Shown here in pieces: positions 14,944 to 34,003 of a stretch of 41,165 nucleotides of DNA (positions within the stretch are counted from its first letter, which is position 1; each line of letters begins with the position of its first letter). Source of the stretch: Chloroflexota bacterium (GTDB lineage Bacteria; Chloroflexota; Limnocylindria; Limnocylindrales; CSP1-4); contig JAJYJO010000011.1 of NCBI GenBank assembly GCA_021789435.1, positions 1 through 41,165 of the forward strand, given 5' to 3'. Under the pieces are notes generated by a model, which was not told the DNA's origin, made no database searches, and saw nothing but the letters and a program-made list of their open reading frames with translations. The translations under genes were made by a program, and so were the position numbers.

Positions 14944-15677
14944 GTGGGCAGGCCGGCTTTCGCGCCGAGCTCGGCTGTGGCGCCGACCTCCGCCGCCGGG
15001 CTGACCTCCGCCGCCGGGCTGACCTCCGCCGCCGGGCCGGGCTCCGCCGCGGGTCCCAGCTCCGCCGCCAGGGTCGAAGGCAGCTCGATCCGCCGCCCGG
15101 CCAGGGCCCGCGGCGTCTGGGCCAGGATCCAGAGGTCCAGCTCCGGAGAGCGGTGGCGGAGATAGGCCGCGTCGAGACGGAGCTTGGCAGGCAGCACCAC
15201 CTCGCGATAGTGGCGCTCCGGGTCGGCCGTGTCGAGGCGGGCCGTCTCGTCCGCGTAGAAGAGCTGGGTCAGGCCCGTCATCCCCGGCCGCGCGGTGAAG
15301 ACCGCCCGGTGGAGCGGCTGGCCCAGGTCGACGAAGGCGGGATCCTCCGGGCGGGGCCCGACCAGTCGCATCTCGCCGCGGGCCACGTTCCAGAGCTGCG
15401 GCAGCTCGTCCAGCCGGAACCGGCGGAGGAGACGCCCGACCCGGGTGAGCCGGGCATCGCCGGCGACCGTCAGGGCCGGGCCGCCGCTCGCCGGCCGCCA
15501 GGCCATCGTCCGCAGCTTGAAGCAGGTGAAGGGCCGGCCGCCGTCCCCGATGCGTGTCGCCGCATAGACGGCCGGACCGGGAGTCTCCAGCCTGACCGCC
15601 GCGGCCAGCGCCGCCAGCAGCGGGAGGGTCAGGCCCGCGGCCAGCAGGCCGAGGATGCGCTGGAGCGGATCGGGCAC
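14940..15677 (-). CDS. Short polyprenyl-phosphate phosphoglycosyltransferase (PglC-like) with Ala/Glu repeat tail
   Basis: This 245-residue enzyme belongs to the same catalytic family as the one at 3951 but lacks its multi-helix N-terminus, resembling monotopic PglC-type enzymes. One re-entrant hydrophobic helix (residues 6-27) precedes ETPGPAVYAATRIG, FKLRTM, the Asp-Glu pair of LDELPQLWNVARGEM, VGPRPEDP and RPGMTGLTQL. The last 40 residues are a degenerate AAEVSP-type repeat encoded by an 18-base DNA repeat. The start is a GTG at 15675-15677, with AGGAGG 12 bases upstream (15690-15695). It heads an operon with a 4,6-dehydratase, an aminotransferase and galE, so it may load the amino-trideoxy sugar those enzymes make. 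That substrate is inferred from context. Confidence 0.92.
   Translation of the reverse strand: MPDPLQRILGLLAAGLTLPLLAALAAAVRLETPGPAVYAATRIGDGGRPFTCFKLRTMAWRPASGGPALTVAGDARLTRVGRLLRRFRLDELPQLWNVARGEMRLVGPRPEDPAFVDLGQPLHRAVFTARPGMTGLTQLFYADETARLDTADPERHYREVVLPAKLRLDAAYLRHRSPELDLWILAQTPRALAGRRIELPSTLAAELGPAAEPGPAAEVSPAAEVSPAAEVGATAELGAKAGLPT
14983..15054. repeat. 18-base coding tandem repeat (about four copies)
   Basis: CTGACCTCCGCCGCCGGG occurs perfectly at 15001-15018 and 15019-15036, with near-copies on both sides. It encodes the AAEVSP-like tail of the phosphoglycosyltransferase. The copies abut without spacers, so this is a slippage-type repeat and not a CRISPR array. Confidence 0.7.
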
Positions 15678-15779: not shown

Positions 15780-17246
15780 TCAGCGCGCGGGCGCGGAGCT
15801 CGACGCCTCCCGGGCGGGCCACGCGGCTGCCTCGTGTCCGAGCGGGTGGAGGTCGGCATCGGCCGGGTCGTGCCGGAGGCGCGCTGACGCCAGGCCGAGG
15901 CCGCCCAGGGCGACGGCCAGCCACCAGCCCGGCACCGGCAGAGCCGACGTCAGCCCGAGAGCCAGCCAGAGCAGGCTCGGCTTCAGGGCCAGCAGCGCCG
16001 GGAGCCCGGGCAGGAAGCCGTGGGTATAGAGGGAGGGGGAGGCGACGATGCTGGCGAGCCCGAGCGCGCTCAGCCCGCTCCGGCCGCCCGGGATCAGGGC
16101 AGCCAGGACGGCAAACGCAGCCAGGACCAGGTAGACGGCGTAGGGCAGGAAGCGCGGGAGGGCATACGCGTAGAACGTGGACGGGAAGGAGGCCTGAGAT
16201 CGCTGGTAGGCGAAGAGCCCGTCGATCCACTGCGTCCAGCGATCGATCCCGGTCAGCGGCACGCTGACCAGAACGAGCGCGAGCAGGACGAAGAGGCCGG
16301 CGAAGAGCGCCGCCAGCCGGCGCTGGCGCACCAGCCAGAGCGCCGGCACCCCGGCCTGGAGCTTGAAGACCGGACCCAGGACCAGCACTTCTCCGCGCCA
16401 GAAGGCAAGAGCGAACAGGAGGAACGCCGGCACTGCGACGTTGCCGACGTAGAGGCCCTGGGCGAAGGGGGGCCAGGCGAGCAGGACGATCGACCAGCGC
16501 CAGGGAAGGCCGAGGGCGCGCAGCGATCCGATGGCTGCCAGGGAGCCGGCTGTCTCCCAGAGGAGCTCCGCGGCCGCCAGGGGCAGGCGCGCCAGGGCCC
16601 CGAAGAGCGGGAGCGTCAGCGGTGGATAGACGAACGGGAAGTGGGTCGGGTCCGGCAGGCTGCCGCGCAGCGGTTCCGCGAGGTAGACCGGCGCCCCGGC
16701 CAGGAAGCGCGCGCCCGCATCGAGGTAGAGCCGGAGGTCTCGCATGGCCAGCCCCTGAAACAGGGAGACGTCGGTCAGCCCCGCCGCCACCGCGGCCTCC
16801 AGCGCCAGGCAGTCGAGGGCCACGGGGTGGCGGCGACGGCCTGTTCCGGCCAGTGCGCCGACGACCACTCCCGCGACCACGAGGGCACCCAGCAGGTCGG
16901 CCGGCCCGGTCACCGGTCGCGCCACCGGTGCCAGCCGCGCGGCGACCACCGCCAGGCCGCCGGCCGCCCCGGCCACCAGGGCGCGCCAGAAGACGCCCCG
17001 ACCGGCGACACCCTCCGGCGCCGCACGGCTGCCGAGCAAGGCCGCCGCGGCTGGCACCACCGCGGCCAGCCAGGCGCTGCGGAACGGGAGGCCGGGCGCG
17101 ACTGGCGCGCTGCCGGCGGCGACCAGGTAGATGCCGAGCAGGACTGCCAGCGGAGCCGTCAGCCCTGCGTTGGCCGGGATCCGCTCGGAGAGCCCCCACG
17201 TCAACGCCCTGCTTCGCGGGTGGGTCACGCCGGGCGTGCGCATCAT
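15780..17246 (-). CDS. GT87-like (DUF2029) polyprenyl-phosphate-sugar-dependent membrane glycosyltransferase
   Basis: This integral membrane protein of about 488 residues is rich in Ala/Leu/Val helices from roughly residue 25 to 470. The first large loop carries DVSLFQGLAMRDLRLYLDAGARFLAGAPVY and then FPFVYPPLTLPLFGAL. This pattern of an Asp-bearing loop followed by a YPP motif is typical of GT87/PimE-type GT-C transferases, which use lipid-linked sugars on the outer face of the membrane. The start is taken as the ATG at 17244-17246 (MMRTPGVTHP), preceded by AGGCGG. The ORF-track extension to 17396 is unconserved. It is divergent from the gene at 17399. Donor and acceptor are unknown. Confidence 0.82.
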   Translation of the reverse strand: MMRTPGVTHPRSRALTWGLSERIPANAGLTAPLAVLLGIYLVAAGSAPVAPGLPFRSAWLAAVVPAAAALLGSRAAPEGVAGRGVFWRALVAGAAGGLAVVAARLAPVARPVTGPADLLGALVVAGVVVGALAGTGRRRHPVALDCLALEAAVAAGLTDVSLFQGLAMRDLRLYLDAGARFLAGAPVYLAEPLRGSLPDPTHFPFVYPPLTLPLFGALARLPLAAAELLWETAGSLAAIGSLRALGLPWRWSIVLLAWPPFAQGLYVGNVAVPAFLLFALAFWRGEVLVLGPVFKLQAGVPALWLVRQRRLAALFAGLFVLLALVLVSVPLTGIDRWTQWIDGLFAYQRSQASFPSTFYAYALPRFLPYAVYLVLAAFAVLAALIPGGRSGLSALGLASIVASPSLYTHGFLPGLPALLALKPSLLWLALGLTSALPVPGWWLAVALGGLGLASARLRHDPADADLHPLGHEAAAWPAREASSSAPAR

Positions 17247-17386
17247 CGCCGCCTGAGCGGCTGGTCGTCCGGAACCGGCATGCTGGATCCCTCCGCGCTC
17301 AGCCGGCAGTCTACGTCGGCCGCGCAGGCGAACAGCCCGAGCGAGCGCGGAGCGACTGACTGCCAATTCGGGCCAGGTCGCCCCTG

Positions 17387-17392
17387 TACACT
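17387..17392 (+). promoter_or_regulatory. Candidate -10 element TACACT giving a leaderless transcript
   Basis: TACACT ends six bases before the ATG at 17399. A typical start site seven bases after the hexamer would fall on the A of the ATG, and no Shine-Dalgarno sequence is present. This suggests leaderless translation. Confidence 0.5.
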
Positions 17393-17398
17393 CCACCG

Positions 17399-18949
17399 AT
17401 GCGCCGACCGATCGAGGGATGGCCTCGTTCCGCAGTGCTCGTCGGTGCAGCGGCCTTCGTCATCGCGGTGGGTGTCGCCCTCTACGTGGTGCGGCCGTTC
17501 CACACGGGAACGCTCGGTTACGACGCGGCCGCCTCGATCCTCTATTTCGATCGGCTCATGGCGGGCCGGCATCTCGAGGCGTTCCTCGGGGCCACCCCCA
17601 AGCCGTTGCTCACCGTCACCTACGGCCTCGTCCACTCGGTGGCACCGGATTGGCGCGCGATCTCCTGGCTCGCCATTCTCGCTTACGGAACCGGAATCGC
17701 CACGTCGGCCGTGCTCGCCCATCGCCTCGGAGGCATCATCGCGGCCGGTTTCGTCACCGCCGCGCTCATCGGGTCGGCCGAGCTGCTCCAGGACGTCGAC
17801 CTCGCCTACGCAGTCTCGTGGGCCCTCATCTTCTGGAGTGCCGCGGGCCTGCTGGTCACGAGTGTTCGGCCGCGGTACGCGTGGGCCGGGGTCGCTCTGG
17901 CCCTGGCTGGTCTGGCGCGGTTCGAGACGCTCATCGTGACCGGAAGCGCCGCGCTGATCCTCGGCCTCGGGTTCGTTGCCGCCAGGTCGCAGACACGCGA
18001 TGCCCACTGGGTCCGCGCTCGAGTCCCGATCCTGCTCGGGTTTCTCACCCTGCCTGTCCAGGGGGTCCACGACTGGCTCCTGACGGGCGATCCGCTGTAC
18101 TCCGAGTCGGTGCCCGTGCTCTCGTCCGCTGGTCTCCACCTGCCAGGGGTGGCCGGCGTCCTCGGAGCGATCGGTGCCCACTACGCTGCGGAGCCGATCC
18201 TCCTGCTCCTGGCCCTGCTGGGGATGCTGACCCTTTGGGGCCGAAGTCCCGACGTCGCCGCCGGTGTGATCGCCCTCGTCGTCGGCGTGCTTCTCTTCCT
18301 CGTCTACCTGGCCTCTCGGGGGATCTACGTCTCCGACCGGTACATCGCACCGGTCGACGTCGGACTGACGTTCGCGGCGAGCCTCGGGGTCGCCTCCATT
18401 CGGTTCCGCTCACTTGCCCGCCGGGTCCGGGCGATCCGTCTTCGCGCTGCGGCCCCGATCTTGGCTGCCGCGGGAGGCGCGGTCATCGCCGTGGCCGTGA
18501 TTCGCCCGTTCGGCCCACTGGATCGCCCGACCCGCAGCGACGTGACGTTCAACGGGATCTTCCACCGTGACCTCGAACGGCTGACCCCGGTGATCCTGGA
18601 GTCGCTCGGCGGCCGGTCAGGACTCCCGAGCTTCCCGGACGACGGGACCGCGACCACGCACACGGGGTCGCGGGCCATCCTTCTGGCGCCCGTTCTGGCG
18701 GTGCCCCAGCTCTCCCTGGACCTGGACCTGCCGCTCTCGGCGATCACTGGCACGCAGGGGCCATTGGTCACGACCGACGGCAGATACCCGCAGCCGGGAC
18801 AGCTCCTGCTTCATTACATCGGCCGGGATGATCCCGAGTCCGCCTTCAGGCTCTTCGAGGTGCGCAGCCCCACGACCAGGGGTGCAATCGCGATCGACCC
18901 CGTCGAGGTCGATCCGGCAGGCCGGTTCTGGCTCGTCAGGATCCGCTGA
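17399..18949 (+). CDS. Multi-spanning GT-C-like membrane protein, paralogue family A (copy 1), function unknown
   Basis: This 516-residue protein has about ten predicted helices up to residue 370 and a C-terminal soluble part of about 140 residues. The first loop has GYDAAASILYFDRL (Asp42) and TPKPLLTVTYGLVH, followed by DWRAISWLAIL. A central HDWLLTGDPLY and SRGIYVSDRYIAPVD are also distinctive. The same blocks recur in the gene at 26068, so the two are paralogues. I do not recognise a named family. An Asp in the first extracytoplasmic loop is a GT-C feature, so a lipid-sugar-dependent glycosyltransferase is plausible but unproven. It appears to be transcribed from its own TACACT promoter. 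Confidence 0.85.
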   Translation: MRRPIEGWPRSAVLVGAAAFVIAVGVALYVVRPFHTGTLGYDAAASILYFDRLMAGRHLEAFLGATPKPLLTVTYGLVHSVAPDWRAISWLAILAYGTGIATSAVLAHRLGGIIAAGFVTAALIGSAELLQDVDLAYAVSWALIFWSAAGLLVTSVRPRYAWAGVALALAGLARFETLIVTGSAALILGLGFVAARSQTRDAHWVRARVPILLGFLTLPVQGVHDWLLTGDPLYSESVPVLSSAGLHLPGVAGVLGAIGAHYAAEPILLLLALLGMLTLWGRSPDVAAGVIALVVGVLLFLVYLASRGIYVSDRYIAPVDVGLTFAASLGVASIRFRSLARRVRAIRLRAAAPILAAAGGAVIAVAVIRPFGPLDRPTRSDVTFNGIFHRDLERLTPVILESLGGRSGLPSFPDDGTATTHTGSRAILLAPVLAVPQLSLDLDLPLSAITGTQGPLVTTDGRYPQPGQLLLHYIGRDDPESAFRLFEVRSPTTRGAIAIDPVEVDPAGRFWLVRIR

Positions 18950-18999
18950 CACAAGGTCCGTCGGGCAGCCGATCGACCGGGACGTGCCTGCGGGCCCGC

Positions 19000-19005
19000 T
19001 AGACT
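19000..19005 (+). promoter_or_regulatory. Candidate -10 element TAGACT
   Basis: TAGACT lies 37 bases before the proposed CTG start at 19043. The predicted RNA start near 19012 excludes longer versions of the protein and leaves the GGAGG at 19032 inside the leader. Confidence 0.45.
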
Positions 19006-19031
19006 AGGGCCCAAACCCGCGGGCGAGAAGT

Positions 19032-19036
19032 GGAGG
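19032..19036 (+). promoter_or_regulatory. Shine-Dalgarno GGAGG for a CTG start
   Basis: GGAGG is followed by six bases (GGCCCT) and then CTG at 19043. No ATG, GTG or TTG exists in this frame until 19196, which would cut off a conserved membrane helix. Confidence 0.6.
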
Positions 19037-19042
19037 GGCCCT

Positions 19043-20566
19043 CTGAGCGACCTGCGAGCCCGGACGAAGCTCCTGGGGCAGACGGGAATCCGCCTCGCGA
19101 TCGGCCCACTGCCGGCCGTTCTCCCGGCCGTCCTGGCGAGCCTGGCGGTCTTCGCGCTCCTGGCCGCATTCATCGCGGTCGACCCGGCCCGCGGCGTGAC
19201 CGGCAGCAACAGCCCCTTCACCGACGAGGCCTGGAACGTCCTCAACGCCCGGAACTTCGTCGTTCTCGGTCGCTGGTCGACCGACGGCTGGGACCGCCAG
19301 CTGGTGAGCATCCCCTTCATGGTGGCCCAGGTCCTCGCCTTCCAGCTGGGTGGCGTGGGAATCGTCCAGGCCAGGCTCGTGAGCGTGGTCGCCACGGCCC
19401 TCACGGTCCTGGCCATCGGCTGGGGCCTCCGCAGGGCGCTGGGGACTGGCCCGGCCATCCTCGGTGCGCTTGCCCTCGGCTCGTGCGCCCTGTTCATCTA
19501 CTACGGTCGCCTCGCCCTCCTGGAACCGAGTGTGGCGCTGTGGCTGACGCTTGGTGGCCTGCTCGTGCTGGCGGCCGACGGGCGCCGGGCCGCGCTGACC
19601 GGCATCGCCGCCGGCCTCTGCTTCGGCGCGGCCATCGGCACCAAGCCGAACGCCGCTTTCGCCGTGGTGGGTCTGCTGGCGGCGGTCGCCGTGGCCGACG
19701 GCTGGAGATCGGCGGCGGTTCGCCGCTGGGTGGCCGGTGCGCTGGCCACGCTGCTGGTTCTCGGCCTGGCCTGGACGCTGCTCGTCTACCTCCCGAACCG
19801 CGCCCAGGTGGCGGCCGTCCTCCAGAGCTGGCCGACCGAGCAGCTGCCCCGCACGGCCGGCGAGCTCTGGCGCAGGGTGATCGGCTACTTCTTCATCGAG
19901 AACGACACGACGCTCGGGCTCGCCGGGCCCCTCCTGATCGGTGGCAGCGCCGGCGGCCTGGTCGCCCTCGCCACCTGGCGGCAGCGCAGCCCGCTGGAGC
20001 GCCGGCTTGTGGCGGCCGCGGGCGGCTGGGCGGCGGCGAGCTTCGCCGTCCTGGCCGCGCTCCCGTACCACCCCAATCGGTATGCGGTCCCGATCATGCC
20101 GGCGATGGCCATCCTGCTGGCCGTGGGCGCAGCCATCCTGGTCGGTCGGTTGCGCACGGCGCTTCCGGCTTCCGGGCTGCTGCTCGCCGGGTTCGCGGTG
20201 GCGGCCGCGGTGACCGTGCCGGGCCTGCTTCGCTACCAGACCTGGATCGACTCCAGCGGCTCGACGCTGCCGGGGATTCAGGCTCGCCTGGCGGACGCGG
20301 TCCCGCCGGGCGCCGTTGTCGAAGGCCGCTACGCCCCGCTCTTCCTGATGCGGGCCCCGGTCGTCACCCTCTTCAGCGTTTCGGCCTGGAACCTGAACGA
20401 GGGCGACCTCTACCGGACGCGCGGCGTGCGCTGGGTGCTGACGTCCGCCGACGACATCCCGAGCTGGGCGGAGGGTCCCGAGGCCGCGGCCTGGGCGGCC
20501 CGGCAGGTGGTCTCCTGCGCTCCCTGGGGCGCCGAGCCCAGCGTCTGCCTGTACCGACTCCCGTGA
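19043..20566 (+). CDS. GT39/ArnT-like membrane glycosyltransferase, paralogue family B (copy 1), probable CTG start
   Basis: About 507 residues. The ORF track starts it at GTG 19196. However, the 50 codons upstream encode a basic N-terminus and the first membrane helix (PAVLPAVLASLAVFALLAAFIAVDPARG), and this region aligns with the paralogue at 32537. The only start-like codon with a good ribosome site is CTG at 19043. The first loop carries SPFTDEAWNVLNARNFVVLGRWSTDGW with the Asp-Glu pair typical of PMT/ArnT-type GT-C enzymes. ARLVSVVAT and GTKPNAAFAVVG are also shared with the paralogue. About eleven helices and a short C-terminal domain follow. It probably transfers a sugar from a polyprenyl-phosphate donor, but donor and acceptor are unknown. 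Confidence 0.85.
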   Translation: MSDLRARTKLLGQTGIRLAIGPLPAVLPAVLASLAVFALLAAFIAVDPARGVTGSNSPFTDEAWNVLNARNFVVLGRWSTDGWDRQLVSIPFMVAQVLAFQLGGVGIVQARLVSVVATALTVLAIGWGLRRALGTGPAILGALALGSCALFIYYGRLALLEPSVALWLTLGGLLVLAADGRRAALTGIAAGLCFGAAIGTKPNAAFAVVGLLAAVAVADGWRSAAVRRWVAGALATLLVLGLAWTLLVYLPNRAQVAAVLQSWPTEQLPRTAGELWRRVIGYFFIENDTTLGLAGPLLIGGSAGGLVALATWRQRSPLERRLVAAAGGWAAASFAVLAALPYHPNRYAVPIMPAMAILLAVGAAILVGRLRTALPASGLLLAGFAVAAAVTVPGLLRYQTWIDSSGSTLPGIQARLADAVPPGAVVEGRYAPLFLMRAPVVTLFSVSAWNLNEGDLYRTRGVRWVLTSADDIPSWAEGPEAAAWAARQVVSCAPWGAEPSVCLYRLP

Positions 20567-20673
20567 TGGGCGGCGGCCCGGCCGCGCAGGCCCCGCGGAT
20601 GATCGGCCCGGCCGCCGGCCGCTCGCGGACCGCGCCGCCGGCGGGCAGGCCGGTGACAGAGTCCGACCCTCCC

Positions 20674-21747
20674 ATGCACTCGGACCCGCCGGCTCGCCGA
20701 CCTCGCCTGCTGCTCTACGGCATGTATGACCCGTCGAAGCAGGCCAGCGCCCCGGTGGTTCGCATCGCACGGCTCGCCGCGGCCCTGGGACAGACGTGCG
20801 ATCTCCAGGTCATCACCGGCGATCGCGTCGGACGGGCGCGGGGCGCCGCGCGCTGGCTGCTGCGCCGAGCCTGGCGCGATGTCGACGCGGTCTACGTCGA
20901 AGCCGCGTCGTCGGCGCCGATGCCCCAGGACCTCCTCCTCATGACCCTGGTTCGACTGTCGGGTCGCCCGCTCGGCATCTACTTCCGCGACGCGTACCAG
21001 CTCTTCCGCGATCTCTACCCGGCGCCCGGTGCCAGGGGCTTCCTCAACGACCTTCTCTGGCGGTTGACGCTGCCGCTCGCCCGCCGCCTGGCCACCCATC
21101 GGTTCACCCCGTCTGCGGGCCTGGCGCGCGCCCTGGGGATGACCGACGCCGTTCTGCTGGCGCCCGGCACGGATCCGGACCTGCCCGACCTGGGGGCCGG
21201 AGCTGGCCATCGGGTCGCCTACGTGGGCGCGTTCGGGGCGGCCGACGGCCTGCCGCTCCTGATCGAGGCGATGGCGACGGTCCGGGCCACCGTGCCCGAC
21301 GCCGAGCTGCTCCTGGTCGGGCCCGCGCCTCCGGCCGGACTCGCCGGGGAGGCCCCGCCCTGGGTGGAGTTCCGGCGAGCCGGCCGGGCCGAGCTCCCCG
21401 CCCTGCTGGCCGGGGCGCGCCTGTGCGTCATCCCGCGGCCGATCACCGCCTACGCCGACCTGGCCGTCCCGATCAAGCTGATGGACTACCTGAGTTACGG
21501 CAAGCCGATCGTCGCCACCGCGGCTCGCGAGACCCGCTCGATCCTGGAGCCGGCGGGGGCCGGCCTGCTGGCCGCCGACAGCCCGACCGCCCTCGCGGAG
21601 GCGATCGTCCGGGTCCTGCTCGACGCCGACCTGGCCGCCGACCTGGCTGCGGCCGCTCGGCGCCTGGCCGTAGCTCCCGGCTCCACCTGGCAGGCGCGAG
21701 CCGCGACCATCGTCGCCACGCTGCTGCCGGACCGGCCCCGTCCGTGA
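20674..21747 (+). CDS. GT4-family glycosyltransferase
   Basis: This cytosolic GT-B enzyme of about 357 residues has an N-terminal half starting RRPRLLLYGMYDPSKQASAPVVRI. The C-terminal half has VAYVGAFGAADGLPLLIEA, LLLVGPAPP, KLMDYLSYGKPIVATAARETRSIL and a GAGLLAADSP donor-site segment. The E-x7-E-like donor motif is modified to a KLMDYLSYGKP form. The ATG at 20674 was chosen because upstream residues are low complexity. An in-frame ATG at 20566 overlapping the previous stop (TGATG) and a GTG at 20653 are alternatives, the former implying translational coupling. The 905-residue ORF-track entry is a shadow fused to this gene. Confidence 0.88.
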   Translation: MHSDPPARRPRLLLYGMYDPSKQASAPVVRIARLAAALGQTCDLQVITGDRVGRARGAARWLLRRAWRDVDAVYVEAASSAPMPQDLLLMTLVRLSGRPLGIYFRDAYQLFRDLYPAPGARGFLNDLLWRLTLPLARRLATHRFTPSAGLARALGMTDAVLLAPGTDPDLPDLGAGAGHRVAYVGAFGAADGLPLLIEAMATVRATVPDAELLLVGPAPPAGLAGEAPPWVEFRRAGRAELPALLAGARLCVIPRPITAYADLAVPIKLMDYLSYGKPIVATAARETRSILEPAGAGLLAADSPTALAEAIVRVLLDADLAADLAAAARRLAVAPGSTWQARAATIVATLLPDRPRP

Positions 21748-21806
21748 CCGGCGCGCCCCTGATCTCGATGGGTGCGCTCCCGGCCGCTCCCGCCCCGGCC
21801 CCGGCG

Positions 21807-21812
21807 TATACT
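21807..21812 (+). promoter_or_regulatory. Candidate -10 element TATACT
   Basis: TATACT lies 62 bases before the proposed CTG start at 21875, in the 127-base gap after the GT4 gene. It is the only AT-rich hexamer in the gap. No recognisable -35 was seen. Confidence 0.45.
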
Positions 21813-21863
21813 CCCGGCGCCCGCGTTGCGGCCGTTCGGGCGGCCCGGGCCGCGGGCATCACG

Positions 21864-21869
21864 AGGAGG
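21864..21869 (+). promoter_or_regulatory. Shine-Dalgarno AGGAGG for a second CTG start
   Basis: A perfect AGGAGG is followed by five bases and CTG at 21875. The ORF-track TTG at 21893 is 23 bases from this site, too far for normal initiation. Confidence 0.6.
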
Positions 21870-21874
21870 TCCCG

Positions 21875-23554
21875 CTGAGAACGGACGGCCGGTTGCCGCC
21901 CTCGGACGCGCCGGTCCCGCCACGGTCCGCGCCCCGCGCGTTGGGCCGTTCCGCTCACCTCGGCCTCCTGCGCGACGACCCGATCACGCTCTTTCCGGCA
22001 TTCGTCCTCGCGTTCGCGGCCCTGGCCATGGTCGTCTTCGGCGGCTACGTGCCGCAGCATGCCGACGTCCAGAGCGCGGGCCGCCTCTTCCAGATCGCCG
22101 CCGGGCTCGCGGCGGCGATCGTCGCCTGGCTCTGCGTGGTCCGGCCGTGGCCGGGCCTGGTCGCCTGGGTCGTGGCGATGCCACTCGTCAACGTCGCCCG
22201 CTCGCAGCTGACGCCCCTCGGCATCCAGCTCATCCCAACGACGGTCTTCGTCATCGCGCTCGCGTTCGGCTGGGCGCTCCAGCGCCGCCGACCCAGCCCC
22301 GCGGACCGGGCCGCCGCCCGTTCGCGCCTGGAGCCGGTCGCCGCCGCCGCCGCCCTGGCGATCGTGGGCCTCGCCGTGGTCGCCACCCTGGCCGCAGCCC
22401 GGCCGGCGGCGTCGTTGCCGATCGCCCTCCATGGACTCGTCGAGCCGGCCGTCGTCGGGCTGCTGGCGGTCCTGCTCCGGCCGCGCCGTTCGCAGCTGGC
22501 CGTGCTGTTGGCCGCCATGGCCGCCTCGGTCGCCCTGGCCTCGGTCTTCAACCTGGTCCGGATCGCCACGCTGGTCCACTCGTTGAGCCAGCTGGAGCTG
22601 GAGCGTGTCCTCTTCGCCCGGCTCACCTACTACAACGTCGGGTTGTTCGGGGTGATGCTGACGATCTCCATCCCACTGGCGGTCGGGGCGATCCTGGCGC
22701 GCGCCCGCCTGGCGGAGATCGCCGCCCGGGCCGGCCTGCGCGGGGTGACCCCGGCCCTCACCGGCTGGCTGGCCGCGGGAGCCCTGGTCATCTCGGTCGC
22801 GGCGCTGATCCTGACCTACTCCAAGAGCGCCTGGCTGAGCTGTGGAGCGGCCCTCGTGCTGCTGGCCCTGCTCGCCGCGCCGACCTGGCGCCTGCGCGGT
22901 GGGCTGATCCTGGGGGTCGCGGTCGTATCGGCTGCGGTGGTGCCATGGCCCTCGTGGGTCCTCCAGCCGATCGCCCCGGGAGCGGCATCGGCCTACCTGC
23001 GGCTGGTGACGGACATCGAAGGATCCAACCGGCTCGCCTCCTGGGACCCGAACTCGGCGGTCGGCGAGGTGTCGATCGTCGAGCGCGCCCTGGCCACCGA
23101 AGCGGCCTTCGAGATGGCCCGCGATCACCCGCTGCTGGGCGTCGGCCCGGGTGGCTTCGAGGCGGCCTACGCCACGACCTACCGGCCGAAGACCAGCACC
23201 CGCGAGCTGGCCGCCGCTCACGACATGCTGCCCAACATCGCCGCCGAGTTCGGGATCCCGGCGGCCCTCCTGGTGACCTTCGCCTTCGGGGCGGCGATCG
23301 TGGGCGCCTGGCGCGCCTGGCGAGCGACCGGAGGGCCTGAACGCCATCTGGCCGCAGCCGCGCTGGCGGCGATCGTCGGCTTCCTGCTGGTCAGTGCCAC
23401 GTTCGGCATCGACCTCTACCGGACCTATCGCCTGATGGACTCGGACGTCCTGTTCGCGGCGCTCCTGGTGGCCGCGGGCATCGGCCTGTGGCGGACGGCC
23501 GCCGGCCCCCCGGAGATCGCGCCGCCAGCCGACGACGATGCCGTCGCCGGCTGA
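21875..23554 (+). CDS. O-antigen ligase/polymerase-like membrane protein (Wzy_C family), copy 1
   Basis: About 559 residues with roughly twelve hydrophobic helices. The periplasmic-loop signature of the family is present as MARDHPLLGVGPGGFEAAYATTY, preceded by TYSKSAWLS and SNRLASWD and followed by AAHDMLPNIAAEFGIPAALL, whose His-Asp/Asn segment is typical of Wzy and WaaL. Such proteins polymerise or ligate lipid-linked repeat units on the outer face of the membrane. The start is taken as CTG at 21875 (LRTDGRLPPSD) because of the perfect AGGAGG five bases upstream; the tracked TTG lies 18 bases further on. Its last 17 bases overlap the next GT4 gene. Polymerase and ligase roles cannot be separated by sequence. 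Confidence 0.88.
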   Translation: MRTDGRLPPSDAPVPPRSAPRALGRSAHLGLLRDDPITLFPAFVLAFAALAMVVFGGYVPQHADVQSAGRLFQIAAGLAAAIVAWLCVVRPWPGLVAWVVAMPLVNVARSQLTPLGIQLIPTTVFVIALAFGWALQRRRPSPADRAAARSRLEPVAAAAALAIVGLAVVATLAAARPAASLPIALHGLVEPAVVGLLAVLLRPRRSQLAVLLAAMAASVALASVFNLVRIATLVHSLSQLELERVLFARLTYYNVGLFGVMLTISIPLAVGAILARARLAEIAARAGLRGVTPALTGWLAAGALVISVAALILTYSKSAWLSCGAALVLLALLAAPTWRLRGGLILGVAVVSAAVVPWPSWVLQPIAPGAASAYLRLVTDIEGSNRLASWDPNSAVGEVSIVERALATEAAFEMARDHPLLGVGPGGFEAAYATTYRPKTSTRELAAAHDMLPNIAAEFGIPAALLVTFAFGAAIVGAWRAWRATGGPERHLAAAALAAIVGFLLVSATFGIDLYRTYRLMDSDVLFAALLVAAGIGLWRTAAGPPEIAPPADDDAVAG

Positions 23555-24719
23555 GCCGCTGCGGCTCGCCTTCCTCGGGGACCCCAACAGCGTCCACACG
23601 CGGCGCTGGGTGACGTTCTTTGCGGAGCGCGGCCATCGGGTCCACCTCCTGGTGGCGGACGACCAGCCGCTGGAGCCGGGGCTCCACCCGGCGATCCACG
23701 TCGAGCGGTACCGCTCCTACGGCGCCCGCCTGCGACCGCGCGGGGCGCTGCGGGCGCGGCGATCGCTGCGCCGGGTGCTGGCGCGGGCAAGGCCGGACCT
23801 CCTCCACGCGCACTACCTGACCCGCTTCGGCTGGCTGGCCCTCCTCTCAGGCTTCCGGCCGCTCGTGGTCACGGTCTGGGGCAGCGACATTCTGCTGACG
23901 CCCCGTCGCTCGGCCCCGGCCGGCCTGCTCGCCCGGCTCATCCTCCGGCGGGCGGCCCTGGTCACGGGAGTCTCGGCGAACCTGCTGGCGGCCGCTCGGG
24001 AGCTGGGCGCGGCGGCCGATCGCCTGCGGGTCGTCCAGTTCGGGATCGACCCGGCGGTCTTCGCCCCGGGCCCGGCCTCCGAGGCGCTGCGGCAGCAGCT
24101 CGGACTGGAGGGCCGGCGCGTCGTCTTCGCCCCGCGCGCGGTGGCTCCGCTGTACCGCCCGGGGATCGTCGTGGAGGCGCTCGCCGACCTCCCGGAGGAC
24201 GTGGCCGGTGTCTTCGTCGAACGTGGCGCCGACTCCGCGACACTGGCCCGCCTGCGTGTCGCCATCGAGCGGCGCGGCCTCGCCGGACGTGTCCGCTTCG
24301 TCGGCGACCTCGACGAGGCCGCCATGGCCGAGCTCTTCCGGCTGGCCGACGTGGTGGTCTCGATCCCCGAGAGCGACGCGTTTCCGGCCACCGCCCTGGA
24401 GGCGATGGCCTGCGGCCGGCCGCTCGTCCTCAGCGACCTGCCGGCTGCCCGCGAGGGCCTCGCGGGCCTGGCCGACCCCGCGTTTGTGGCGACGATGCTG
24501 GTCCCGGTCGGCGACGCGGCGGCGACTCGCCGGGCGATCATGACCGCCCTGGAACGCCCCTCGGCCGTGGCGGTCGAGCTGGCCGGCCGCCTCCGGACGC
24601 TGGCGCTCGAGCGGGCCGACCGGACGCGCAACCTGGGGGGCATGGAGGAGGCCTACCTCGAGATCGCGAGGGCCGGTGCGGGGCGGCGCTCCGGCCGGAC
24701 GAGCCGGTGGATCGCGTGA
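23538..24719 (+). CDS. GT4-family glycosyltransferase
   Basis: This 393-residue GT-B enzyme starts with LRLAFLGDPNSVHTRRWVTFFAERGH, a classic GT4 N-terminus. It continues with HAHYLTRFGWLALL, VTVWGSDILLTPR and VVQFGIDPAVFAPG. The donor-binding half has RVRFVGDLDEAAMAELFRLADVVVSIPESDAFPATALEAMACGRPLVLSDLPA, including the E-x7-E arrangement in the SDAFPATALEAMACG region. The ATG lies inside the end of the polymerase-like gene (17-base overlap), and its stop overlaps the flippase start as GTGA. It is therefore in a tight operon with the polymerase and flippase, as expected for repeat-unit synthesis. Confidence 0.92.
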   Translation: MPSPAEPLRLAFLGDPNSVHTRRWVTFFAERGHRVHLLVADDQPLEPGLHPAIHVERYRSYGARLRPRGALRARRSLRRVLARARPDLLHAHYLTRFGWLALLSGFRPLVVTVWGSDILLTPRRSAPAGLLARLILRRAALVTGVSANLLAAARELGAAADRLRVVQFGIDPAVFAPGPASEALRQQLGLEGRRVVFAPRAVAPLYRPGIVVEALADLPEDVAGVFVERGADSATLARLRVAIERRGLAGRVRFVGDLDEAAMAELFRLADVVVSIPESDAFPATALEAMACGRPLVLSDLPAAREGLAGLADPAFVATMLVPVGDAAATRRAIMTALERPSAVAVELAGRLRTLALERADRTRNLGGMEEAYLEIARAGAGRRSGRTSRWIA

Positions 24720-26071
24720 GCGGGGCATCGCTCTTCGGGACGCGCGTGGCCGGCGTCTTCGCCACCCGGGTCGCCCAGTTCACGGCCTCCGTGCTTGTGA
24801 CCTTCCTGCTGGCCCGGCTGCTGGGGCCGGCCGGCCGCGGCCAGTACGCGCTGGTCACGCTGGCGGCGACGACCCTCTTCTCGCTGGCCCAGCTCGGGCT
24901 GCCCTCGGCCACGGTCTTCTACGCCGGTCGCGGCTACGCGCTCCGGTCGATCGTCCGCCACGCCGCCCTGGTGACGGTCATCCTCTCGGCGATCCTGGTG
25001 GGCGCCGGTTTCCTGGCGCTGCCATTCCTGGAGCGCAACATCCTGCGCGACGCGCCGGACGGCCTGGTCCGCCTGATGCTGCTGACCATTCCCCTGCAGT
25101 TCGCCGCCACCCTCGCCGGCTCCATCCTGTACGGACGCCAGGCCATGCGGGCCTACAACGTCGTCCTGGTCGGCCAGGCGGTGCTGTCCCTGGGGCTGGT
25201 GCTGGTGCTGGTCGGTCTCCTGGGTCTCGACGTGCCGGGCGCCGTCGCCGCCTACGCCGTCGTCACGGTGTTCGGCGCGGCCGCGACGGCATTCCAGCTT
25301 CGCCGGTTGGGAAGGCGGGAGGCGGCCTCGCGGCCGCCCGGCGAGGTGGCGCCGAGCCTGCCGCTGCGCCGGTATGCGACCTACGGGCTGCAGCTCTATG
25401 CGGCTTCGATCACGAGCTTCTTCAACTACCGCGCAGACGTCTTCCTGATCAACGGCATCCTCGCCTCGGCGTCGGCCGTCGGGATCTACGGGGTCGCGGT
25501 CAACCTGGCGGAGATGACGTTCTACGTCCCGGATTCGATCGCCACCGTCTTCTTCCCACGTGTCGCCGCGTCGACCCGGGCCGAGGCGGACCGGATCGCC
25601 CCGATGATCTCCCGCTTCTCGGTCATGCTGACGGCCCTGGCCGCCCTGGCCCTGGTCCCGGCCTCCTGGCTCGCGCTGCACTTCCTGCTGCCGGCCTACG
25701 GCGGGAGCATGCCGGTCCTGCTGGTCCTGCTGCCGGGCGTCGTGTCGCTCAGCCTCTCGAAGGTCCTGGCGGGCTACCTGACCGGCCTCGGTCGGGCGCT
25801 GCCGGTCACCCTGGCCGCGACCACGGCGGCGGTGGTCAACGTGGCCGCGAACCTGGTCGCGATCCCCATCTGGGGGATCGTCGGCGCCGGGGCAGCCTCG
25901 CTGCTCTCCTACGGCCTGCATGCGGGGATCATGCTGTTCTTCGCCTCGCGCTCCGCGGGCTGCCGGCCGCTGGACTTCATCGTCCCCGGGCGGGGCGAGC
26001 TGGTCCGTCTCCGCGACGGCCTTCGCGGTCTCCTCCGCGGGCTGCCGACTCACCGATCCGCAGCCTCGTGA
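24716..26071 (+). CDS. Wzx-like polysaccharide flippase, copy 2
   Basis: A membrane protein of about 451 residues with roughly fourteen helices. It opens with SLFGTRVAGVFATRVAQFTASVLVTFLLARLLGPAGRGQYALV, the standard start of polysaccharide-synthesis flippases. SITSFFNYRADVFLING and ASAVGIYGVAVNLAEMTFYVPDSIATVFFPRVA are equally typical. I prefer the GTG at 24716, which overlaps the previous stop as GTGA with GGTGG upstream; the ORF track gives an earlier GTG at 24707. It probably moves undecaprenyl-PP-linked repeat units made by the adjacent GT4 enzymes across the membrane for the neighbouring polymerase. Its stop overlaps the next gene in the same GTGA manner. Confidence 0.92.
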   Translation: MSGASLFGTRVAGVFATRVAQFTASVLVTFLLARLLGPAGRGQYALVTLAATTLFSLAQLGLPSATVFYAGRGYALRSIVRHAALVTVILSAILVGAGFLALPFLERNILRDAPDGLVRLMLLTIPLQFAATLAGSILYGRQAMRAYNVVLVGQAVLSLGLVLVLVGLLGLDVPGAVAAYAVVTVFGAAATAFQLRRLGRREAASRPPGEVAPSLPLRRYATYGLQLYAASITSFFNYRADVFLINGILASASAVGIYGVAVNLAEMTFYVPDSIATVFFPRVAASTRAEADRIAPMISRFSVMLTALAALALVPASWLALHFLLPAYGGSMPVLLVLLPGVVSLSLSKVLAGYLTGLGRALPVTLAATTAAVVNVAANLVAIPIWGIVGAGAASLLSYGLHAGIMLFFASRSAGCRPLDFIVPGRGELVRLRDGLRGLLRGLPTHRSAAS

Positions 26072-27726
26072 GCGGCATCGCCGCGGGGAGGTCCGGTCTC
26101 GCCGCGGGTGGCGGCGCCGCCCGCGGCCTGTCTACGGCGGCCCGGCTGCTTGGGATCGGCGTGCCGGCCGCGGCCGCTCTCCTCGCGGCGGCGGTCGCCG
26201 TCGACGTGGTCCGGCCCTTCCAGGTCGCCCCCGTCTCGTTCGACGCGGCCTCGTCCGTCGCGTTCTTCGATCGGATCGCCAGCGGCCGGCGTCTCGAGGC
26301 CTTCGTCACCACGACGCCAAAGCCCCTGTTGACCGTCCTCTATGGCATCGTTCACGGTCTGAGCCATGACTGGCGGCCGATCTCGTGGCTGGCGATCCTC
26401 TCGTTCGCGCTGGCCGTCGCGGCGGCGGCCAGCCTGGCCCTGCGGACGGGCGGGCCGGTGGCCGGTGCCTTCGCCGGCGTGGCCCTGGCCGGCGCCCCGA
26501 CGCTCCTGGGCGATGTCTCCCTGGCCGGCGGGGTCGCCTGGGCTGTGGCCGGCTGGGTGGGCGCGGGCCTCCTGCTGACGAGCTCGCGGCCTCGCTACGC
26601 AACGGCCGGGCTGGCGCTCCTGATCGCCGCGCTGGCCCGGGTGGAGACGTTCGTCGTGCTCGGCGTGGCGACCGTGGGCCTGGCCTGGCTGGCGTTCGGG
26701 CCGCTGCCGGCGAGCCTCCGCCGGCCGCCCCGGCGGGCCTTCGCCATCCTGATCGGCTTCGGTGCCCTGCCCTGCATGCTCCTGCACGACTGGCTCCTGA
26801 CGGGAGACCCCTTCTTCTGGATGACGGTCTCCGTCGTCTTCTCCCGCGCGGCGCCGGCGGCCGTCATGACGCCCGTCCAGGTCGTGAGCTTCCTGGTTCA
26901 TCGCTACGAACCGGCCTGGCCCCTGGTGCTGCTCGGCCTGATCGGCGCGGTGGATCTGCTCGCCCGCCGCCGCTGGGTGGTCGCGGCGGGCCTGCTGGCC
27001 GTGGGCCCTGGCATCGCCGCCTTCCTGGTGCTGCTCGCCGCCCGCGGCATCTACGTCTCGGATCGGTACGCGGAGCCGATCGACGTGGCGCTCCGCTTCG
27101 TCGCCGCGTTCGGCGCGGCCGCGCTCGTTCGCGGCCTCTTCCGAGCGGCGGATCGCACGGCAGGCCGCCTCGCGATCCCGGGAGCGCCCACGGTGCGGGC
27201 CGTCCGGGCGCATCCCGCCGGGCCGGCGGTCGCGGCGCTGGCCGTGGGAGCCGCCGCCGCGGTCCTGGCGGGCGGCCCCTTCGGGCCGCGGGACGCGGTC
27301 CTCAGGCGCGACGTCGCCGCCGAGCGGGCGCTGAACGGCAACGAGCAGGCCGTGCTGCCGGTCCTGGCCGCCGCGGTGGAGCGCACCTTCCCGGCCCGGG
27401 AGCGCGCGGCCGCGCCCGGCTCCGCGGCCGCCGCAGTGCCGCGCCTGATCGTGCCGGTGCTCCTGCGGCCCCGGGTGGCCGTGGACCTCGGTCTGCCGCT
27501 CTGGGCCGTCGGCAGCCGCTCGCCGGCCGCCGACGGCCCGAACGCCGCGCAGGTTTCGGTCCCGACGATCGTCTATCACGACGCCGGGGCCGACCGGCCG
27601 GTCGCGGCCTATCGTCCGTTCGAGATCGACCGCCCCGGACGGCTGGGCCGGCTGGAGATCAGCCCGATCCTGGCGTCGCCCGACCGTGGGCTGTGGGTCG
27701 TCGAGCTCACGCCCCTGACGCCGTGA
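26068..27726 (+). CDS. Multi-spanning GT-C-like membrane protein, paralogue family A (copy 2), function unknown
   Basis: About 552 residues from a GTG at 26068 that overlaps the flippase stop (GTGA). The 1016-residue ORF-track entry fuses an antisense-like shadow to it. It shares blocks with the gene at 17399: VVRPF, SFDAASSVAFFDRI (Asp59), TPKPLLTVLYGIVHGLSHDWRPISWLAIL, HDWLLTGDPFFW and ARGIYVSDRYAEPIDVALRF. About ten helices precede a C-terminal part of about 170 residues that ends DRGLWVVELTPLTP and corresponds to the C-terminal domain of copy 1. Tight coupling to a Wzx/GT4 operon supports a role in the same glycan pathway, for example adding a side-branch sugar. No named family was recognised. 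Confidence 0.83.
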   Translation: MSGIAAGRSGLAAGGGAARGLSTAARLLGIGVPAAAALLAAAVAVDVVRPFQVAPVSFDAASSVAFFDRIASGRRLEAFVTTTPKPLLTVLYGIVHGLSHDWRPISWLAILSFALAVAAAASLALRTGGPVAGAFAGVALAGAPTLLGDVSLAGGVAWAVAGWVGAGLLLTSSRPRYATAGLALLIAALARVETFVVLGVATVGLAWLAFGPLPASLRRPPRRAFAILIGFGALPCMLLHDWLLTGDPFFWMTVSVVFSRAAPAAVMTPVQVVSFLVHRYEPAWPLVLLGLIGAVDLLARRRWVVAAGLLAVGPGIAAFLVLLAARGIYVSDRYAEPIDVALRFVAAFGAAALVRGLFRAADRTAGRLAIPGAPTVRAVRAHPAGPAVAALAVGAAAAVLAGGPFGPRDAVLRRDVAAERALNGNEQAVLPVLAAAVERTFPARERAAAPGSAAAAVPRLIVPVLLRPRVAVDLGLPLWAVGSRSPAADGPNAAQVSVPTIVYHDAGADRPVAAYRPFEIDRPGRLGRLEISPILASPDRGLWVVELTPLTP

Positions 27727-27973
27727 CTCGACCGACGCCGAGGCGACCCGGCCGCGCTCGCGGAAGCGTCCGGCGCGTGGCCGCGAGGACCGGGGGCCGC
27801 GACCGAGGAAGCTTCGGGCGCTCCTGCGCTACGCTTCGCCCGGCACGCCGTCGGGGGGTGGTTCCGCGGGGGACGGGCGTGGAGGGGTGCGGACGCGCCA
27901 GGGCCGGCGCGGCGTGACCGGTGACCCGGGGGCCTCCGCCGGGCCGGCCGGGCAGACAGGGAGCAGATCGATC

Positions 27974-29797
27974 GTGTCTTCGGGAATGCACGCGGCGCCC
28001 GCGGGGCCCGCTCGGGACCTGCGGACCCTGGCCGCGGTGGCTCTCCTCGCCGCTGTCGGGATCGCGAGCGGCCTCAGCCCCCAGGTCTTGCCGCTCTGGG
28101 CGGCCTATCTGGCCACCGCGGCGATCGGGGTGGGGCTGCTGGCGGCGGGTCTGCCCCCGCTCAGCCTGGCGGCCGCGCTGGTGCTCGCCGGCGCGGCCGG
28201 CGAGTCGAGTCTCGTCCCCGATGCCGGCCGGAACCTGCCCGAGCTCGTCCTGGCCATCCCGCTCTTCGGGTCGGTCTTCCGCGAGGTGGCCCGGGATCGG
28301 TCCGTCCTGGTCCGGCCGCCGCGGGCCGTCGTCGTGGGCGCGCTGCTCTACCTGGCTGCCAGCGCGTGGTCGCTCGTGCCCTCGACGCTCGGCGGGCTCC
28401 GGCCGACGTACCCGCTCGTGGTCGTCGCGACCATGGCTATCGGGCTGGGCCTCGGGCTGGTCGTGGTGCCGAGCGCAGCGGTGACGCCGCGTGCCCGCCG
28501 CGGCCTCCTGATCGCCGTCGCCGCGCTGGGCCCCCTGCTCGTCGCCATCGAGGCGTTCCTCGTCCTGTTCGGGCCGGTCCAGTGGCTCGGTTCGTGGCTG
28601 GGAGCGTGGGTCATGGCCGAGGTGACTGTCCTGGGCCACCCGACGGGACTGATCCTGCAGCGCGTCACGGGCCCGTTCGAGCGGCCGGCCGGCGCGTCCA
28701 CGATCCTCGCCGTCTCCAGCCTTGCCATTCTGGCCCTGCGGCCCACCCTGACACGCGGCTGGCGCATCGCGGCGAGCGCCGCACTGGTCGTCGTGGAGCT
28801 GGCTCTGGCGATCACCATGAACCGCGACGGCTGGCTGATCCTGGCCCTGGCAGCCGGGCTCATGGCGGCCGTCACGCTCTGGCAGGGCAGGCTCGACGTA
28901 CCGTCGCTGGCGACAGGGGTCCTCTTCCTCGGGCTGATGGGGGCCATCACGCTCAATCTGGTCGGCGCCAATCTGCGCCCCGACGCGGCGATCGCGCACT
29001 ACGGGGCCGCCGTTGCGGCCACGATCCCCGGGACAGAGGCCGACACGGTCGTCCAGCTCCGCGGTGGCGCGTCGCTGACCGGCCGGAGCGAGCTGTGGGA
29101 TGCCTCGGTCAAAGCGATCCAGCTTCGGCCGGCGTTCGGCTGGGGGCTCGGCTCGGACCAGGCTGCCATCGGTCCGCTGCTGGCGCCGGAAGCCCAGCGG
29201 TTTCGCGGCCTCACCTCCGACTCCACGTGGCTCCTGACAGCGGTCGAGACGGGCCTGGTGGGTCTCCTCTCCCTGGCCGTCCTCTGCCTGGCGGTCCTGG
29301 CGGCGCTCGGCCGCCGCTTCATCCGGGCGCGGCAGGACCCCCTGGACCCCCTCGCGCTGGCGATGGGGGCCGTCTTCGTGGGCCTGCTGGCCGGCGGGAC
29401 GTTCGAGACGTACCTGCCCGGCGGGCTCACCTTCCCGAGCTTTGAGCTGGCCCTGGCCACCGGGCTGGCGGTGGGGCAGCTCGATGCGGCGGCCGCCCTC
29501 CGCCTGCGGTCGCTGATGCGCAGGACGCGATTCAGCCGGCTCCCCCGGTCGGAGCCGGCGCCGGAAAAGAGGGCGGCAGGCGGCGGCGGGCCGGACGGGA
29601 CCGCCCGGGGCCAGGGCTCGAGCTCGCGCCCGGCGGATCAGCGACGTCCGCGCTGGCCGGCCGCCGGCACAGCCGCGACGCTCGGAGCCCGGCCGGCACC
29701 CGTCGTCTCGGAGACCGACCCGCCACGCCTGCGGCGTCCTAAGGGCGAGGAGGACGGCCGGGGTCCGGCTGGCGGCCCCGGAGGCCCGGGGGGCTGA
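27974..29797 (+). CDS. O-antigen ligase/polymerase-like membrane protein, copy 2
   Basis: About 607 residues from a GTG at 27974 with AGGGAG ten bases upstream; the ATG at 27986 and the tracked GTG at 27887 are alternatives. About ten helices are present. The signature region is QLRPAFGWGLGSDQAAIGPLL, equivalent to the HPLLGVGPGGFE region of copy 1, preceded by ITMNRDGWLILA and SLTGRSELWDASVKA. The C-terminal 110 residues are a low-complexity Arg/Pro/Gly-rich cytoplasmic tail. A TACGCT at 27830 is a weak -10 candidate in the 247-base gap upstream, which holds nothing else I recognise. The last 59 bases overlap the GT4 gene on the opposite strand. It may serve a second polymer or act as a ligase. 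Confidence 0.82.
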   Translation: MSSGMHAAPAGPARDLRTLAAVALLAAVGIASGLSPQVLPLWAAYLATAAIGVGLLAAGLPPLSLAAALVLAGAAGESSLVPDAGRNLPELVLAIPLFGSVFREVARDRSVLVRPPRAVVVGALLYLAASAWSLVPSTLGGLRPTYPLVVVATMAIGLGLGLVVVPSAAVTPRARRGLLIAVAALGPLLVAIEAFLVLFGPVQWLGSWLGAWVMAEVTVLGHPTGLILQRVTGPFERPAGASTILAVSSLAILALRPTLTRGWRIAASAALVVVELALAITMNRDGWLILALAAGLMAAVTLWQGRLDVPSLATGVLFLGLMGAITLNLVGANLRPDAAIAHYGAAVAATIPGTEADTVVQLRGGASLTGRSELWDASVKAIQLRPAFGWGLGSDQAAIGPLLAPEAQRFRGLTSDSTWLLTAVETGLVGLLSLAVLCLAVLAALGRRFIRARQDPLDPLALAMGAVFVGLLAGGTFETYLPGGLTFPSFELALATGLAVGQLDAAAALRLRSLMRRTRFSRLPRSEPAPEKRAAGGGGPDGTARGQGSSSRPADQRRPRWPAAGTAATLGARPAPVVSETDPPRLRRPKGEEDGRGPAGGPGGPGG

Positions 29798-30773: not shown

Positions 30774-30835
30774 GTCCGCTCGCAGGCGACTCGGGACCGC
30801 GGGCGGCGGCGAGCCGGCGCGGTCGGGGCGCCGAG

Positions 30836-30952: not shown

Positions 30953-30962
30953 TGGCCTCCCG

Positions 30963-32213: not shown

Positions 32214-32214
32214 C

Positions 32215-32536: not shown

Positions 32537-34003
32537 TCACTGTACCTCGTAGAGGCAATCCTGGGAGTTGAACCAGGCCGCGCACACGATCCTCCGGCGG
32601 GCATCCCAGGCCCCCGGAGGCAGCGAAACCGAGTAGGGGTAGGCGTCCGGGTTGGTCAGGTACCAGCGTGCGCCTGCCGAGTGGTAGAGGTCGCCCGAGT
32701 TGCCGGGGACACCCTTGGCGGTGATGATCGCGACAACAGGCGCACGCATCATGAAGAGGCCGACATCCACGCCCACGACCACCGAACCGGCCGGCACCGC
32801 CTGCGCCATCTCCGCCTGGATCGCGGGGGCGGTGGAGGGCGCGCCGACCACCCAGGAGGCGTAGGAGACGAGACCAGGCGCGGCCAGAAGAACCGCGAGC
32901 AAGGCCACCGCGCCGGCGCGTGCCGCGGCCGGCAGGCGCACCCGCACCCACGGCCCGGCGAGCGCAATGCCGGCGGCCACGAGGATGCCGGCCGCCGGGA
33001 GCATGGGCAGGACGTAACGGTTCGGGCGATAGGAGGCGACGGCCAGGATCCCCAGGCCGCCCACGAGCCAGCCGATCGCAGCCGCGACCAGCCGCGGCAG
33101 AGCCTCGTCCAACTCTCGTCGGCGGATGAAGACCACAACCAGGCCGAACAAGCCCATCGCGGCGATGGGCAGACTGAGCCGCAGCGCGCCGTCGTTGTCG
33201 ACCACGTAGGTCAGGACGCGGTGGACCAGGGATCCGGGGGTGGTCGGCCACGTGAACGGGGGCCAGATCCTGAGGACGTTGGCGAACGCAGCGCGATTCG
33301 GCAGCCAGACCAGCGCGCCCCAAGCCAGCCCGGCGACGAGGACCCCAAGCACGGCACCGGCGATCCAGCGACGAGTCGCCGGCGTCCGCGCGGCGAGGAC
33401 CGCCACCGCGGCCAGGATCCCGGCGACCGCGAATATGGCGCTCGGCTTCGTGCCGACGCCGAGCGCCAGGAGCGCTCCGCCCACAAGCCCCCAGCGCCAG
33501 GGCCGCCGCGCGATATCGCGGCCGAGAGTCAGAACACCTGCCGCCAGGAAGAAGATCACGAGGTCTTCCTGGTAGACGAGGCGACCGTAGTAGAGCAGCA
33601 GACCGGCCGTCGCGACGGCCAGGGCGGCGAGGCTCGCCGCCCGCTTGCCGAATGGCCGGGCCAATCCCCAGCCGAACACCAGAATGAGCAGTCCAACCAC
33701 GGCGACGCAGGCCAGTCGAGCCTGTACGATCCCGACGCCGAAGACCGCGAACACGCCTGCCAGCAGGGTGCTCAACGGGAGCTCCACAAGGTACAGGTTC
33801 CAGCTGTCCGTGGACCACCGGCCCAGCAGGACGAGATTGCGAGCGTTGAGGGCGTTGTAGCCCTCATCCGAGAAGGGGCTGGAGCTTGCGGTGACGTGCT
33901 GGGCGGGGTCAGCCGAGACCGCCGCCGCCAGGATCACGATCAGGCCAAGTCCGAGCAAGGCCGGCGCAAACCAGGAGGGGATCGCCCGCCGTCGCCCGAT
34001 CAC
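32537..34003 (-). CDS. GT39/ArnT-like membrane glycosyltransferase, paralogue family B (copy 2)
   Basis: About 488 residues from a GTG at 34001-34003, with GGAGG (plus CCTCC at 34008-34012) four bases upstream; the ATG at 34024 is an alternative. After one membrane helix it reads ADPAQHVTASSSPFSDEGYNALNARNLVLLGRWSTDSW. This matches SPFTDEAWNVLNARNFVVLGRW of the gene at 19043 and carries the Asp-Glu pair of PMT/ArnT-type enzymes. GIVQARLACVAVVG and GTKPSAIFAVAGI also align. About eleven helices end in a short domain with GDLYHSAGARWYLTNPDAYPYSV. It probably uses a polyprenyl-phosphate sugar on the outside of the membrane. The neighbouring operon is unrelated (metal transport). Confidence 0.86.
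   Translation of the reverse strand: MIGRRRAIPSWFAPALLGLGLIVILAAAVSADPAQHVTASSSPFSDEGYNALNARNLVLLGRWSTDSWNLYLVELPLSTLLAGVFAVFGVGIVQARLACVAVVGLLILVFGWGLARPFGKRAASLAALAVATAGLLLYYGRLVYQEDLVIFFLAAGVLTLGRDIARRPWRWGLVGGALLALGVGTKPSAIFAVAGILAAVAVLAARTPATRRWIAGAVLGVLVAGLAWGALVWLPNRAAFANVLRIWPPFTWPTTPGSLVHRVLTYVVDNDGALRLSLPIAAMGLFGLVVVFIRRRELDEALPRLVAAAIGWLVGGLGILAVASYRPNRYVLPMLPAAGILVAAGIALAGPWVRVRLPAAARAGAVALLAVLLAAPGLVSYASWVVGAPSTAPAIQAEMAQAVPAGSVVVGVDVGLFMMRAPVVAIITAKGVPGNSGDLYHSAGARWYLTNPDAYPYSVSLPPGAWDARRRIVCAAWFNSQDCLYEVQ

Follow-up and report, generated by a model that had tools for sequence, protein, structure and literature searches.

A lineage-restricted protein family from Ca. Limnocylindria (Chloroflexota) with the predicted fold of GT-C membrane glycosyltransferases

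What do two related membrane proteins, assigned to no named family, do within a single bacterial glycan locus? The window, that is, the whole stretch of 41,165 nucleotides analysed here, corresponds to contig C27 of a Chloroflexota genome (2.85 Mb, 156 contigs), and it holds a Wzx/Wzy-type glycan locus with two Bac_transf initiating enzymes, CapD-, DegT- and epimerase-type genes, four GT4 glycosyltransferases, Wzx, two Wzy_C proteins, a GT87 and two PMT_2 transferases, and the two proteins in question, P0001 and P0002 (Table 1). Five GT-C-type transferases (GT87, the two PMT_2 proteins, P0001 and P0002) are crowded within 18 kb (15780-34003). Elsewhere in the window, two putative esterase (PF00756) genes follow one another at 8264-10816, downstream of a LytR_cpsA_psr gene (5555-6955), and in locus L051 of a relative the second gene upstream of the family member is likewise of esterase type. 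The stretch 34193-38137 contains a tandem pair of Nramp genes along with a PRC/CBS/MgtE_N gene; in L063 (10988-13507) a protein with the same start extends to 839 aa, possibly through a fusion with Nramp. At the contig end (38635-41127) long open frames run on both strands, the minus-strand frame having no Pfam match.

Table 1. Features of the glycan locus in the window.
Feature	Position	Strand	Remarks
GDP-mannose dehydratase family gene	2602-3657
Bac_transf, initiating phosphoglycosyltransferase	14940..15677	-
GT87-family GT-C transferase	15780..17204	-	divergent from P0001
P0001, family member	17399..18949	+	516 aa; about 11 TM helices and a C-terminal extracytoplasmic alpha/beta domain (predicted)
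PMT_2-type GT-C transferase	19196..20566	+	directly downstream of P0001
Wzy_C / O-antigen ligase-polymerase type protein	21893..23554	+
GT4 glycosyltransferase	23538..24719	+
Wzx-type flippase (Polysacc_synt)	24707..26071	+	probably coupled, upstream of P0002
P0002, family member	26068..27726	+	552 aa; GTG start; D59 is the equivalent of P0001 D42
Wzy_C protein, second	27887..29797	+	directly after P0002
PMT_2-type GT-C transferase, second of the locus	32537..34003	-

The original prediction had placed the two genes at 17399 and 26068 and called them paralogues within one glycan locus. Open reading frames are present at both positions, and BLASTP aligned P0001 and P0002 over 510 aa with 40% identity and 55% positives (E 3e-76), a similarity far above chance level that marks them, by sequence, as full-length paralogues. 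The shared motifs quoted for the pair were recovered in both proteins, with the first-loop Asp among the invariant residues described below. The second copy had also been described as translationally fused to a Wzx/GT4 operon, which does not stand: the wzx stop TGA (26069-26071) and the P0002 GTG start (26068) instead share 4 bp, GTGA, and hence the two genes are probably translationally coupled, not fused. Among the carriers of the family, only the genome of the window has two full-length copies. In a 16-sequence tree P0001 formed a clade with L016 and L021 (support 97/96); P0002 grouped with L024 at lower support (83/89). Recent tandem duplication was therefore rejected as their origin; with the copies in separate clades the duplication reads as old, and P0001 and P0002 look like old paralogues, older than the genera concerned.

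We next consider whether the proteins have a home among known families, none having been recognised from the sequence at the outset. Neither P0001, P0002 nor 16 relatives gave an above-cut-off match in Pfam or NCBIfam. In particular, no match to PMT_2 (PF13231) was found at E<=1 in the 18 family members, short of the Pfam gathering cut-off, and none reached that of GT87 (PF09594), to which no match was found. NF047440, a putative glycosyltransferase family named after Leptospira genes LA_3751/LA_3752, for which our literature search found no paper, was matched by L025 over 250 residues (E 3.5e-7), but at 29.4 bits against an NCBIfam cut-off of 200, and the other family members had no match. 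A sequence-profile search of the PDB yielded no relative of the family, its only match, PsbW (E 0.07), being disregarded; PycTM (Pfam, E 0.04) and other sub-cut-off Pfam matches were rejected as short or chance. The family can thus be called undescribed as far as Pfam, NCBIfam and the PDB are concerned. Profile searches found it in 20 of the 177 genomes of class Ca. Limnocylindria, spread over 12 of 46 genera; a single family-rank group accounts for all of these carriers except one. A twenty-first match, in genome G001, is a PMT_2 protein and hence was not counted as a carrier. Outside the class, a profile search of a phylum sample of 400 genomes gave no convincing relative, the matches being weak fragments of PMT_2, DUF6541/YfhO and PAP2 proteins, and a P0002 pattern scan of 84,980 species, which reaches close relatives only, returned one relative.

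Could P0001 and P0002 simply be divergent PMT_2 members missed by the Pfam model, a matter of name that would leave the mechanism unchanged? Their best profile-profile match is indeed PMT_2 (hhalign probability 75%, E 2.6e-5 for a single pair, compared to 0.1% each for the LPG_TM and Wzx controls and 1.4% for GT87), and of the four weak out-of-family matches to the family profile, two (L047, L088) are PMT_2 proteins. Yet no member matches PMT_2 even at E 1, whereas the PMT_2 genes neighbouring P0001 and P0002 do match its Pfam model, and the motifs TPKPLLT and HDxLLTGDP as well as the C-terminal domain are the family's own. We consider such hidden PMT_2 membership unlikely, and regard the family as a lineage-restricted GT-C family of known principle that neither Pfam nor NCBIfam names; the sequence comparison agrees, weakly, with the GT-C assignment.

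The original prediction had termed the proteins GT-C-like, a view to be abandoned if the fold lacked GT-C features or a characterised family of different function matched clearly; neither was seen, the Pfam and NCBIfam searches giving no above-cut-off match and Foldseek placing the predicted fold among GT-C proteins of the PDB. The P0001 AlphaFold model, built from an 18-sequence alignment, had a pLDDT of 87.5 and a pTM of 0.89; a first fold from 5 sequences was poor (pLDDT 64) and used as a cross-check only, and a frame-broken copy from genome G014 (L066) was excluded from the alignments used for folding. In the model, TM1 (10-31) is followed by a loop (32-84) with juxtamembrane helices at 41-54 and 69-81, ten more TM-length helices up to residue 367, and an extracytoplasmic domain (376-516). 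K+R density in the predicted loops was 0.24 inside versus 0.08 outside, which supports an N-in topology. The roughly 11 modelled TM-length helices lie within the 7-13 of GT-C enzymes, among which 11 is common, and the superfamily has been described as having 11 TM helices and an acidic motif shortly after TM1 (PMC6801728). The first 35 Foldseek rows contained only GT-C enzymes, complexes that include them and the PIGU subunit, which has the GT-C fold, with ArnT 5f15 (E 6.8e-6, TMq 0.53), STT3 8pn9, ALG9 9s6s (TMq 0.53), AftA 8if8 and PglB 6gxc as best matches and AglB, AftB, PMTs, AftD, EmbB, PimE and DPY19 also present; TM-scores were moderate (~0.5) and sequence identity to the matches was 10-16%. 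For a separate, low-confidence model of P0002 the six best matches were likewise all GT-C proteins (AglB, AftA, ArnT, PglB). Judged by predicted fold, the family most likely belongs to the GT-C superfamily.

Conservation was examined on the same framework. The following residues are invariant where covered (P0001 numbering): D42, E60, T66, K68, P69, R174, E176, H224, D225, R307, R314 and Y315, with D42, E60 and K68 invariant in 16/16 and R314-Y315 in 18/18 sequences. In the predicted topology D42, E60, K68, R174, E176, H224, D225, R307, R314 and Y315 are all placed on the outer face. In the model D42 starts helix 41-54, the first periplasmic helix after TM1, and shares the first periplasmic loop with E60 and K68, so that the position and conservation of D42/E60 correspond to the acidic first-loop residue on which catalysis by GT-C enzymes depends. 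In PimE, ALG6, ArnT and PglB the catalytic Asp is at the apex of JM1 (PMC12041525); D42 occupies the equivalent position in the model, and we propose it as the candidate catalytic base. PMT_2 proteins and ArnT (5f15) likewise appear to share with the family the GT-C core with an Asp just after TM1, and an RY motif where a late TM helix reaches the extracytoplasmic side, but differ in the features already noted. PIGU of the GPI transamidase, being among the Foldseek matches, brings up a GT-C fold that adds no sugar, as a non-catalytic or scaffolding subunit or as a mover of another lipid-linked group, for PIGU has the common fold but a different function (PMC12041525). The first-loop Asp, Glu and Lys and the RY motif are, however, invariant although the sequences are only ~30-44% identical, as expected of an active site, and the family gene and a PMT_2 enzyme occupy a common genomic slot (below); we hold a role without sugar addition to be very improbable.

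Evidence for the donor comes from the neighbourhood of the relatives. Genes for a GT2 protein (PF00535) and an LPG_synthase_TM protein (PF03706) adjoin the family gene in nine relatives' loci, where the family gene is usually divergent from GT2 with less than 250 bp between them. Exceptions are L057, where a short contig carries a GT2 remnant and LPG_TM was not seen, L052, with a distance of 1.7 kb, and L066, with its frame-broken family gene. In a tenth locus, L054, a different GT2 lies directly upstream of the family gene. The only PDB match of the GT2 is the dolichol-phosphate-mannose synthase 5mlz (E 4e-6). For one GT2 in a 3 Mb genome, we estimate the chance of a family gene falling within 2 kb of it at about 1 in 750 per genome, and hence the adjacency is not random. 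The GT2 was found in 19 of the 20 carriers but also in 69 of the 177 genomes, most of these without the P0001/P0002 family, and about half of the family genes do not adjoin it. The pair is absent from the window contig, that of the same genome being on contig C151. GT87 genes, as beside P0001, adjoin family genes in L052, L057 and L058 too. The neighbourhood of the relatives points to the use of a lipid-phosphate-sugar.

The GT2 loci fetched, from 20 carrier and non-carrier genomes chosen non-randomly, defined a slot: in most, a molybdopterin oxidoreductase gene (PF00174) adjoins the GT2-LPG_TM pair. Across the 20 distinct loci in which both were seen, the space between oxidoreductase and GT2 was empty (<230 bp) in 12, held a member of the P0001/P0002 family in five (G101, G024, G065, G112, G049) and a PMT_2-type GT-C in one (G001; L141, G001:C26, 7736-9151, 50% identical to the window protein at 19196-20566), and measured 600-700 bp in the remaining two, G063 with a family-gene remnant and G014, whose frame-broken copy lies between GT2 and LPG_TM. 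The slot of the window's own genome is empty (196 bp; L127, G000:C151, 6182-8760). Next to the putative synthase and flippase of a lipid-phosphate-sugar, a single chromosomal slot therefore carries one of two GT-C families or neither, and the P0001/P0002 family most likely serves as an exchangeable third component. In G063 an intact GT2/LPG_TM pair stands beside a family-gene remnant (L131 4100-4406) and an intact family gene beside a GT2 remnant (L057 1784-2065), as if the pair had been duplicated and the two copies had decayed in complementary ways. The G014 family gene (L066 8953-10510) is frame-broken at several places, by decay or assembly error.

Taken with the fold, these data lead us to predict, with considerable confidence, that P0001 and P0002 represent a new GT-C membrane glycosyltransferase family acting in periplasmic transfer from a lipid-phosphate-sugar. 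The cytoplasmic GT2 synthase would make the polyprenyl-phosphate-sugar donor and the LPG_synthase_TM protein would flip it, the pair on C151 presumably supplying both window enzymes. Each enzyme, with ~11 predicted TM helices, its N terminus inside and a long first periplasmic loop forming two juxtamembrane helices, would then take one sugar from this donor on the outer face of the membrane, with D42 of P0001, which opens the first of these helices, as general base. The acceptor would be a lipid-linked repeat unit or polymer, in the window probably of the Wzx/Wzy-type glycan, because P0002 appears coupled to wzx and because in L060 and L063, from two other genomes, the family gene is followed downstream by GT4 and Wzx homologues. 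Binding of the acceptor may be assisted by the extracytoplasmic domain at the C terminus. For the donor sugar we can offer a weak guess, mannose, because 5mlz is the nearest structure to the GT2 and the window has a GDP-mannose dehydratase family gene. Alternatively, the enzymes might hand over an entire chain from a lipid-diphosphate carrier to protein or to another glycan, in the manner of a ligase or oligosaccharyltransferase, as the presence of STT3, PglB and AglB among the Foldseek matches and the position of P0002 between Wzx and a Wzy_C protein would allow. Equally good matches, though, came from ArnT, ALG9 and AftA, whose donors are monosaccharide lipid phosphates, the linked genes encode a GT2 resembling monosaccharide-lipid synthases and a flippase-like protein, and the locus already has two Wzy_C/ligase-type proteins, all of which make oligosaccharide transfer a slim prospect.

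The predicted transfer of single sugars has parallels in three-component systems ending in a GT-C enzyme, which are established (PMC11127046). As in the GtrA/GtrB/Gtr and GT136 systems, a polyprenyl-phosphate-sugar synthase, a flippase and a GT-C enzyme would be encoded together in the nine relatives' loci, and different systems recruit unrelated GT-C enzymes. In contrast to these, the flippase-like protein here is LPG_synthase_TM (PF03706), not of the GtrA or MATE type, the synthase/flippase pair is outside the window, and the functions of GT2 and PF03706 are putative. In archaea, arCOG00899 (PF03706), an AglD-like GT and PMT/STT3-like genes occur in one neighbourhood, and PF03706 is predicted to be a flippase in glycosylation (PMC5898192); the same three gene kinds are found together, but in an archaeal host and with arCOG00563 as the GT-C partner.

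We regard the family as adding a branch to an enzyme type already known, not as a new kind of machine. The fuller reading, a lineage-specific Ca. Limnocylindria GT-C family that would merit a CAZy family of its own and form the exchangeable, acceptor-specific part of a GT2/LPG_synthase_TM system with PF03706 as flippase, has in our judgement an even chance of being right. The GT-C superfamily would gain an unnamed family from an uncultured Chloroflexota branch. Moreover, one chromosomal slot (empty, P0001/P0002 family or PMT_2) beside a fixed GT2/LPG_synthase_TM pair provides a natural swap series that would tie bacterial PF03706 membrane proteins to lipid-phosphate-sugar export, where direct flippase evidence is scarce, and is a ready test system.
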